Shown here one piece after another: positions 46,416 through 61,857 of a stretch of DNA of 64,000 nucleotides (its first letter is position 1; every line of letters begins with the position of its first letter). The DNA is from Gigantopelta aegis (lineage: Eukaryota; Mollusca; Gastropoda; Neomphalida; Peltospiridae). Made by a program: the position numbers and the translations under genes. Under the pieces are notes generated by a model that was given only the letters and a program-made list of their open reading frames with translations, was not told where the DNA came from and did not search any database. The stretch is from positions 106,294,226 through 106,358,225 of the forward strand of contig NC_054702.1 of NCBI RefSeq assembly GCF_016097555.1, in the 5' to 3' direction.

Positions 46416-49400
46416 TGAAAACCGCATACTGGAAAAATGGTCACCAAGAGGTCAGAATATCAGAGACAGTTTAAAGTGTCTACACTGAAGAAAAATGTTC
46501 CATCATATTATGAAAATTTAGTATTTAGAAACCAGTTTCGAAATCGGCAATATTTTCATACTCCAATAGATTGGGAATCTTCAGATGAATCAGAGTCTTC
46601 GTCTTTGGAAACTGTAAATTATTCTTCACACAAAAAGAGTGGTTCCCAGACAAAGAAGTGTACAGATGATATTACTTCAGAACGTAGTATTAACAACAAA
46701 CAAAACAAGATTTGCGATGATTATGATGAAAGGGTAGATAAAAAAGTAAATAAGTGCACAAATACTGAAAATGCATTAATAGACAGTGAGGAGAGCAGCT
46801 CTGTGTCGGAAGATGATGGTGAGAATGAAGTGGTGGTTCTTGTTAAAAGGAAAAAGCACAAATGTGATGGACCAAAACAGAAAGGTAAAATGTTTATCAG
46901 AGGTCAGTATTTAAAATAATTCAACCAAGTGGTACAGTCTTCGTCGGGTATTCGGGGGCTATGGGATCCATCCAACTTGTCAGCATTCGAAATAAGCACT
47001 TGTTCATTTGTCCTGACAAGTGAAAATCTGCTCAGACATGCAAAATGTACCTTGGTGGTAATCCGGTGGATAAATAAAAATGTTCAATGCAGTTTCATTT
47101 TGAGCAATCAAGAACATTGCCCTTGCACTTGAATAAAACAAATCATTTATTTGGACAAATACAATTAGGCCTAAAGGTGGACAAGTAGATTTCTAGATGT
47201 ATTTGTCTGGTGGACTAGTGACATTTTCTGCTTATTTCCATTACTGCTCATTACACTCTTCTGAGGTGGAGGCAGGATGTAGCTCATTGGTATAGCAGGA
47301 GTCTGATGCACAATCCATCTAGAATCGATCCCTGTCGGTGGGCCCATTGGGCTATTTCTTATTCCAGTCAGTGCTCCACAACTGGTGTAACAAAGGCCGT
47401 GGTATGTATTATTCTTTCTAATATTATTATATACTGATTCAGTGATTGTTCAATGTATGGTATTCAAAATATCTAGGGCATAACATAGCTCAGTGGTAAA
47501 GCACTTGCTTGATGCATAGTTGGTTTGGGATCAATCCAGCCAGTGCTCCACAACTGGTGTAACAAAGGCGGTGGTATGTACTATTCTGTCTGTGGGATGG
47601 TGCATATATAAAGGATCCCATGCTGTTGATCGAAAAGAGTAGCCCATGAAGTGGTAGCGGTGGGTTTACTCTCTGAGTATCTGTGTGGTCCTTAACCATA
47701 TGTCCGATGCCATATAACTAAATAAAATGTGTCGAGTGCGTTCTTCTGAGGTGCTTCGGTTGTAGTATCGAATCATCTCACTGAACCCATTCTCTGATCA
47801 GTTTTCCCCATTCCAACCAGTGTATGATGATTGGTATAATATCGAAGATCATGGCATGTGCTATCCTGTTTGTCGGAACATGCATATAAAAGATCCCTTG
47901 TTGCTAATGGAAAAAATGTAGCAGGTTTCCGCTAAGACTACAAGTACAAAATTACCAAATGTTTGACATCCAATAGCCGATGATAAATAAATCAATGTGT
48001 TCTAATGGTGTTGTTAAACAAAACAAACAAATGTAATTTCCCAGTGGTTATTTGAAAAGAATCTGCTTTAACTCCAGCTAGCCCCAGTGTTATAATATCA
48101 TTATATACTGAATTATATACTGATTCAATGATTGTTCAATGTATGGTATTCAGAATATAACGGAACGGGACATAGCCCAGTGGTAAAGCACTCACTTAAT
48201 GGTTTGGGATTGGGCTATTTCTTGGGCTATTTCTTGGGCTATCCTGTCTGTGGGATGGTGCATATAAAAGATCCCTTGCTGCTAATTGAAAAAGAATAGC
48301 CCATGAAGTGGCGACAGTGGGTTTCTTCCCTCAATATCTGTGTGGTCCTTAAGCATATGTCTGACGTCATATAACCGTAAATAAAATGTGTTGAGTGCAT
48401 CCTTAAATAAACCATTTCCTTCCTTCAAATTATCTTTTTATTAATAAGTGCAAACTTTACTCAATATTTTTTTTTTGGGGGGGGGGACGTTTTTTTTAAC
48501 ACAAATCACTTATCTGAAGCATATGAGGTGAGCGATTTATTATTGCATGATGTTTTAAAACAAAAACAATGGATTTTTCTCTAAATACAAAGCTCTAAAA
48601 GCTAACAATTTCATTTTATTATTGTTTCTAAAGTAATTTTGTTTTTTTTAGCAGGTTTTGCACATTGTTATGACACTGATTTTTTTAATTTCTCTTTCAC
48701 AAGTTCCCACCAACAAAACTTACATTTGTAAGCGGACTCGAATGAAGTGTCCAGACCGGTGTCAGGAGATCCCAAAACCTTGTAAGAAGGTCCTACCAGT
48801 CTATGAAAAACCTCCATTTGTTGCCTATGGCTGGGCAGAACGCCTCCACCACCAGACTCACAATGTTCGAGCTCCTAATGATGTATGTGTTTCATCAACT
48901 GTTTCATTTCACTACTAACTCTCTCTTCTGATTGGGTTATATCAGAAATTAGTGTTGGGGGAAGGGAAGCTATCGAGTTCATTATGCAGGGATCAAACTT
49001 AAGAATTTGTCTCCTACGGCAATTTTAAAAAGAATTGCCATGATTGAAATGGCTCACTGACAGCAATTTTGAGACTGCCTATGGCAATAATTTTTTTAAG
49101 TGACTTAGGAGAGAAGAAAGTTTTATGGACCTGCTATGGGACTTATTGCTGGAGCAGTGCTTTTAGAATGCTTGTTCATGTCGGTGTACTTATTTTGAGT
49201 TTTATATCTCATTTCATTCTATAATTATTGATATTTAAAATGGAATATCCCCTACTTATTTTTAACAGAATGTAATAATCAAATATTCATATAACAAAAC
49301 AAATTTAAAATGCACTAATACACATTTTAATATGCACCGATACACGTTTTAATAATAGATTTTGTCTGTCCAACATGTAGCTTTCTTAGTGACTCAAGAT

Positions 49401-60500: not shown

Positions 60501-61857
60501 TCCAGTGAATAAATTAATTACTTGTGTGCAGTGATATGTTGTTACAGCTTGAATTATTTATTTTTCTGTTATGCTTTATCAGTTCTAAATTATTTTTCAC
60601 AGCATGGTATATGTTAGCATTGCCGCATTGATTGCGATTGCAATTACTGTTTTTGTAATAATTAAAGGGAAAACAAATATAATGAACAAGAAAAGCACAA
60701 GTCTATTCTGGACAAAAGATAACTTCGGCTTATACACAAGTCCAATGATTTTGTACTAGATATTTAGGGTCAAACTAAGAGGTCGGCTTATCAAAGGAGT
60801 CGGCTAATACACGGTATCTCAAAAAACTATTATGTCAGTGACTTAACAATAATTTGTGATGCCTTGTGTAAAAATGGAACATTCAAAATCTTCAGTCTAT
60901 GGAGTAATTTCAGAATTCACTTTTGTTTTTGTTGTTTGGGGGGAAGACATCTAAAGGTCTGACTGTTTAAATTTATGAATTTATAACTTGTAATGAATAT
61001 GCTAATGGTGTCAAACTAACAGCAGTCTACCTGAATCGTTCCTGGCCAGCAGTGTCCCAGATCTGTAGTTTGACTGCTTTGCCTGCAACATTCACAACCT
61101 TGCTACCGAACTCCACCCCTATTGTGTGGTTAGAATCATGCTTAACTGAAATCAAATAGGAAAAAGTTTTAATTGATCAAAGAAAATGAAGAAATACATG
61201 TAATATTAATTAGTTTGAAAGTAACATAAAATGTTGTTCCAAAGTCTAATAAGGAATAAGACACCCATTTAACAATATAACTTAAAAGCTAAAGTTGATC
61301 TTTAAAAAACTTGAAATTCTGTTCTAACTTAAAGGTACCAAGGTTATTTTTCAATATTTTAGATATAAGCCAGGGTGGAACATAGCCCAATGGTAAAGCG
61401 CTTGCATGATGCACGGTTGCAATCCCTGTTGGGGGGGCACATTAGTTTTTTTTATTCTAGGCAGTGCACCAGAACTGGCACATCAAAGGCTATGATATGC
61501 GCTTTCTTGTCTGTGGGATGGTGCATATAAACGATGTCTTGCTACTAAATTACTAATGGAAAAATGTAGCGGGTATCCTCTCTAAGACTATATGTAAAAA
61601 TTACCAAATGTTTCGCATACAATAGCTGATGATTGATAAATCAATGTGCTCTAGTGGTGTTTTTAAACAAAACAAAGCTTAACTTTTAGATATAATCAGT
61701 GTCAAGGGAGTCAGACTTTTTATCAGTATTCAAAGTAACAATTTTCATTAAACACTAATATGAAAAAAGCACTTACATTTGTTTTCAATGAACTGGTGCA
61801 GAATGCAAGATTTTCCTGTGCCAGCACTTCCAATTACTAGAAACTTGAAGAGAAAAT
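57531..61857 (-). CDS. Rab4: Rab4 small GTPase, six visible coding exons, first exon not certain
   Basis: Coding exons on the minus strand are 61857-61777, 61145-61031, 59670-59608, 58996-58842, 58213-58118 and 57640-57531 (TAG stop at 57533-57531). All have AG acceptors and GT donors, and the phases join without a break. They encode 206 residues starting at the Asp of the Rab4 [11 protein letters not shown] block. The P-loop reads GSAGTGKS, switch [12 protein letters not shown]3 WDTAGQE, G4 GNKKDLE and G5 ETSAL. The [13 protein letters not shown] and [18 protein letters not shown] blocks mark Rab4 rather than Rab2, Rab11 or Rab14. The C-terminus is Cys-Ala-Cys, a double geranylgeranylation motif, so it acts on membranes, in Rab4's case on early and recycling endosomes. 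With a few missing N-terminal codons the length fits the family (about 213-218). The protein looks intact. The donor after exon 58842 is GTTTGT, weaker than the rest. A SINE sits in the last intron. Confidence 0.93.
57781..58075 (-). mobile_element. SINE-C, full length, in the last Rab4 intron
   Basis: Tail GTTTGTTTTGTTTAACGACAC at the left. At the right is the head (GGGATCGATCCAAGCCC box B, GAGCACTTTACCACTGGGCT box A). It lies between Rab4 exons 57640 and 58118, about 40 bases from the donor of the latter. Confidence 0.92.
58563..58630 (+). mobile_element. SINE-C/B head fragment in a Rab4 intron
   Basis: GATGGGGTGTAGCCCAGTGGTAAAG, then TGGGTCAATCCCAGTCAT: box A and box B only. Confidence 0.75.
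59098..59157. repeat. 20-bp tandem repeat, 3 copies, in a Rab4 intron
   Basis: AGTAGGAAGCTGCATATTAA three times, with further looser AAGCTGC echoes to about 59210. Confidence 0.88.
59892..60810. mobile_element. Possible DNA element with GTATTAGCCGACT ends, in a Rab4 intron
   Basis: GTATTAGCCGACT (59892-59904) and AGTCGGCTAATAC (60798-60810) are perfect 13-bp inverted repeats. Echoes such as GTCGGCTTATACAC lie just inside each end. No transposase frame was found in the 919 bp. Confidence 0.55.
61370..61690 (+). mobile_element. SINE-C, near full length, in a Rab4 intron
   Basis: Head GGTGGAACATAGCCCAATGG, GGTTGCAATCCCTG, CCAGAACTGGCACATCAAAGG, GTCTGTGGGATGGTGC, TTACCAAATGTTTCGC and GTGCTCTAGTGGTG. 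It lies in the intron between the exons at 61777 and 61145. Confidence 0.9.

Follow-up and report, generated by a model that had tools for sequence, protein, structure and literature searches.

Two converging genes and their models

The window, a stretch of 64,000 nucleotides from the gastropod Gigantopelta aegis, holds two protein-coding genes that lie tail to tail, CCSAP on the plus strand and Rab4 on the minus strand. This arrangement had been proposed in the original prediction, and it is borne out by the exon models (Table 1), by a match of the one protein to the Pfam profile PF15748 and by matches of the other to Rab4A and Rab4B. The predicted distance of 7.6 kb between the converging stop codons also holds, as the two are separated by exactly 7,610 bases, from 49921 to 57530. 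In both genes, every intron with its two boundaries inside the window begins with GT, ends with AG and connects its exons in frame.

Table 1. Coding exons of the CCSAP and Rab4 splice models, in the order of transcription, with the score of each exon on its own
Feature	Position	Strand	Remarks
CCSAP coding exon 1	46437..46884	+	start codon at 46437; PF15748 29 bits for the frame alone, above the cut-off
CCSAP coding exon 2	48704..48882	+	PF15748 alone 16.3 bits, below the cut-off
CCSAP coding exon 3, including stop codon	49678..49920	+	alone no CCSAP match
Rab4 coding exon with P-loop	61777..61857	-	PF00071 alone 21.6 bits, at the cut-off
Rab4 coding exon	61031..61145	-	PF00071 alone 45.5 bits
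Rab4 coding exon	59608..59670	-	PF00071 alone 18 bits, below the cut-off
Rab4 coding exon	58842..58996	-	PF00071 alone 43.8 bits
Rab4 coding exon	58118..58213	-	PF00071 alone 18 bits, below the cut-off
Rab4 last coding exon, including stop codon	57531..57640	-	alone no Pfam match

The script-spliced model of CCSAP consists of three coding exons spanning 46437-49920 and encodes a protein of 289 amino acids, whose N-terminus reads MVTKRSEY. When the exons are joined, the protein matches PF15748 with an E-value of 3e-18 and a score of 67.3 bits, against a curated cut-off of 27 bits, and the alignment covers profile positions 2-259 of 260. With a near-full-length match above the cut-off, the plus-strand gene is CCSAP, and the same match of the joined protein rules out that it is something else. 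Position 46416, which the original prediction had given as the start, is by eye the likely acceptor of the exon that carries the start codon, and a second in-frame donor 18 bases further on provides this first coding exon with an alternative end at 46902. Work with the human protein, as described in part of the source, has shown that CCSAP, which belongs to centrioles, cilia and spindles, targets polyglutamylated microtubules (PMC4642972). Pattern searches for CCSAP relatives, in collections without animal genomes, returned 4 matches in viral contigs and 28 in genome contigs, and tblastn confirmed none of these. The second intron of the gene also carries a 93-base direct repeat on the plus strand (49103-49195 and 49490-49582), the copies of which are 96% identical.

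On the opposite strand, six coding exons of Rab4 were found, running from 61857 down to 57531 and giving a script-spliced model of 206 amino acids. An AG precedes all six exons, a GT follows the first five, and the reading frames join. The joined protein scores 203.7 bits with PF00071, for which the cut-off is 21.6 bits. Among PDB sequences, the top two were those of Rab4B (2o52, 353.6 bits) and Rab4A (2bmd, 347.9 bits), followed by two entries labelled only "GTP-binding protein" (1yu9, 318.5 bits; 1z0k, 315.4 bits) and, at a greater distance, by Rab14 (4d0g, 247.8 bits), Rab2B (219.2 bits) and Rab11B (174.3 bits). Judged by these PDB sequence scores rather than by a tree, the minus-strand gene is Rab4, closer to Rab4A and Rab4B than to Rab14, Rab2 or Rab11; identity as Rab14 was rejected, its score being some 100 bits below those of Rab4B and Rab4A. 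Rab4 is a GTPase of early-endosome recycling, and the model retains C-terminal cysteines in its last residues (...SDCAC), which we take to be the lipid-anchor motif.

Narrow searches of 61857-64000, which an unusual exon could escape, did not recover the first coding exon of Rab4, the one with the start codon. A weak candidate for it, MGNKSLVPCFYRH at 62282, does not resemble a Rab4 start, and an in-frame ATG at 61903 is disfavoured as the natural start, since translation from it reads through a good acceptor. The DNA upstream of the Rab4 exons seen contains a direct duplicate at 62342-63120, the copies of which are spaced about 524 bases apart and are 82-89% identical in three pieces. An inverted repeat is also present at 62760-62864, with 47-base arms that are 94% complementary and separated by 11 bases.

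The stretch between the stop codons

No gene was recognised between the two stop codons. Fifteen stop-to-stop frames of at least 60 amino acids fall within the gap or extend into it, and a Pfam scan of 14 of them gave no match at a family cut-off; three frames had weak matches with E-values of 0.03-0.08. The scan omitted the frame at 57430-57771 on the minus strand, which overlaps the last exon of Rab4, as well as frames of 40-59 amino acids, and because frames shorter than 60 amino acids were outside its scope, a gene made of small exons could be missed in the gap. Rfam yielded no match at its gathering scores anywhere in the window.

When the stretch between the stops was compared by BLAST with positions 1-46400, with 62000-64000 and with three intron stretches, 1,005 of its 7,610 bases, in five intervals, were found to recur elsewhere in the compared parts of the window, and the other 6,605 were not. 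One recurring stretch of 219 bases occurs at 44030-44247 and again in the gap at 50794-51012, so that one copy lies on each side of CCSAP; at 99% identity, the pair looks like a recent duplicate or a mobile element. The recurring stretches also include two that are SINE-like. The SINE-like repeat is presumably similar to ones in gastropods and bivalves; a piece of it had no match in the collections of viral and genome contigs. Within the window, a 20-base piece of the repeat matches at 11 places when up to three mismatches are allowed, compared with 0.01 expected from shuffled sequence. Two of these matches are placed in the gap, three in the first intron of CCSAP and one in the last intron of Rab4 (e.g., 47617, 47895, 48273, 54242, 54616 and 57890).

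Candidate poly(A) signals occur close to both genes, the first AATAAA lying 77 bases past the stop codon of Rab4 and others lying 124 and 371 bases past that of CCSAP. In the part of the gap that was scanned, however, the hexamers AATAAA and ATTAAA add up to 23 on the plus strand and 22 on the minus strand, and with such a frequency their presence near the stops is weak evidence on where the transcripts end. They offer only a hint, read from the DNA, that the CCSAP and Rab4 transcripts may end about 7 kb apart. Most likely, each transcript would end independently, near the poly(A) signals by its own stop codon, without overlapping the other.

The pair in vertebrates

In the human genome, RAB4A and CCSAP are, on our assumption, likewise convergent and about 15 kb apart, compared with the 7.6 kb between the stops in the window. 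Human RAB4A and actin both lie at 1q42.13. For other vertebrates, the published gene lists are informative to different degrees, and all of them are known here from parts of their sources. A list for mouse chromosome 8 reads "Urb2 Taf5 Abcb10 Acta1 Ccsap Rab4a Gas8" (PMC5774710), and one for sheep chromosome 25 gives RAB4A, SPHAR, CCSAP, ACTA1, NUP133, ABCB10, TAF5L and URB2 (PMC10376747). The mouse row is also labelled "Human-NO Synteny", a label that we take to concern the non-coding RNA of that table (PMC5774710). In dog, RAB4A and CCSAP appear in an alphabetical list for a 1,168-kb region of chromosome 4 (PMC9957375), and both are named on cattle chromosome 28 (PMC11346954, PMC8624223). 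In salmon, rab4a and ccsap fall within one 250-kb region of chromosome 1 with eight other entries, five of which are listed between the two, in an order that may not be positional (PMC7896726).

Adjacency in vertebrates is thus partly supported: the mouse and sheep lists fit it, with SPHAR intervening in sheep, while those for dog, cattle and salmon speak for linkage. The strands of RAB4A and CCSAP do not appear in the vertebrate gene-list passages seen, including those of PMC7482814, PMC8624223 and PMC8100051 for human. As far as these passages go, the RAB4A-CCSAP-ACTA1 neighbourhood of mouse chromosome 8 and sheep chromosome 25 resembles the window in having Rab4 and CCSAP either adjacent or with SPHAR between them. 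It differs in its other members, since neither actin nor NUP133, ABCB10 or RHOU was seen in the window on reading by eye.

An older mapping paper may hold a further vertebrate instance. The zebrafish BAC zC202M22 was described as having a 52-kb stretch with four genes, namely abc-b10, rab4a, actin and a novel EST, fv49b10, and the passages at hand state that the morpholinos used in that work cover start codons (PMC406391). The reverse complement of the fv49b10 morpholino is ATGGTGACCAAGCGAATTAGGTCGG, which translates as MVTKRIRS and has five residues in common with the MVTKRSEY that begins CCSAP in the window. From these five starting residues, fv49b10 may be zebrafish ccsap, which would give a name to an EST left unnamed in that paper. 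However, the same source, in the part seen, calls fv49b10 novel and marks it as an EST unique to zebrafish in the region (PMC406391), a label that speaks against the ccsap reading and leaves it as a lead.

Origin and persistence of the pair

CCSAP and Rab4, two ordinary genes with unrelated functions, are probably neighbours in the window because the common ancestor with vertebrates already had them adjacent, and the pair could have persisted via a lack of chromosome breaks, with no selection on the arrangement itself. We consider it probable that this is an ordinary inherited pair, kept by lack of breaks and with transcripts that do not overlap; both the inheritance and the persistence are steps that we infer. 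Conserved local order of this kind has ample precedent. According to the passages available, the bilaterian ancestor acquired 256 new microsyntenic blocks, compared with 45, 48 or 56 when genomes were shuffled; of the new bilaterian blocks, lophotrochozoans keep 93% (PMC8851819). The pair is like these blocks in having a local order common to a lophotrochozoan and to vertebrates. It is unlike them in comprising two genes, whereas the blocks hold at least three, and the Rab4-CCSAP pair is not named in the passages. Since conserved blocks of at least three genes are common, order shared between lophotrochozoans and vertebrates is to be expected in many places (PMC8851819). The original prediction had offered a shared 3' regulatory region, antisense overlap and a simple lack of breaks as three readings of the pair, and the last is the plainest of them because hundreds of such blocks are known.

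The claim that the pair has been kept since the split of protostomes and deuterostomes is plausible as far as proximity goes, given that CCSAP and Rab4 adjoin each other in the window and are listed together in vertebrates in the passages cited above; the convergent orientation of the human pair is assumed. Among the matches listed from open-licence PMC texts, no paper names RAB4A-CCSAP as an ancestral pair. If found in other invertebrates, the pair would provide a further marker of ancestral gene order, and its confirmation there would mean that RAB4A-CCSAP adjacency predates the vertebrate genome duplications.

It is conceivable that Rab4 and CCSAP met independently in the lineage of the window and in vertebrates, and members of one ancestral linkage group would be likelier to re-meet. 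The chance that a given pair is adjacent is, however, about 1 in 10,000 by simple arithmetic on an assumed 20,000 genes, and it would fall further if the human genes do converge as assumed. In a protostome genome, so low a chance means that common descent beats coincidence, and we hold an independent meeting of the genes to be quite unlikely. Another possibility is that selection holds the pair, through a control element within the neighbouring gene or the gap, which would make it a small genomic regulatory block, or through insulation between the converging genes. Regulatory constraint is documented for some conserved gene pairs, according to the passages seen (PMC8851819), and the 6,605 of 7,610 gap bases that do not recur would leave room for an element. 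Set against this, nothing was recognised in the gap by the Pfam and Rfam scans, and repeats have inserted at five intervals of it, so that selection of this kind appears unlikely.

A narrower form of constraint, in which selection across the Bilateria acts on the stretch between the 3' ends because it carries a shared enhancer or a termination or insulation element that both genes need, is very unlikely. The shared 3' regulatory region of the original prediction found no support. We know of no pathway shared by CCSAP and Rab4, and their pairing alone says nothing on regulation. Least probable of all is that the convergent order is explained by antisense overlap of the 3' ends. The genes do converge, and long 3' UTRs would be compatible with the DNA, but the stops are 7,610 bases apart and each has candidate poly(A) signals nearby, leaving the suggested overlap unsupported. 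An inherited pair with independent 3' ends is the reading that we prefer to these alternatives.

Other features of the window

The first 46 kb of the window were read by eye, with low-complexity sequence and some repeats filtered, and four stretches of it, two of them overlapping, were submitted to Pfam. Far from the gap, at 32903-32974, ARAGORN reported a single tRNA, the anticodon of which is not clear. A stop-free open frame of 393 amino acids, rich in basic stretches, lies at 28924-30102 on the minus strand; it had no Pfam match and no matching PDB sequence at E-values up to 1, and may be a gene that is limited in its distribution. The plus strand carries what is left of a Tc1-like transposase at 41248-42283, where PF01498 scores 31.8 bits against a cut-off of 31.5, and the reading continues in another frame from 41870. 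Long tandem arrays occupy approximately 5130-6580 and 9018-10305, where open frames recur periodically on either strand.
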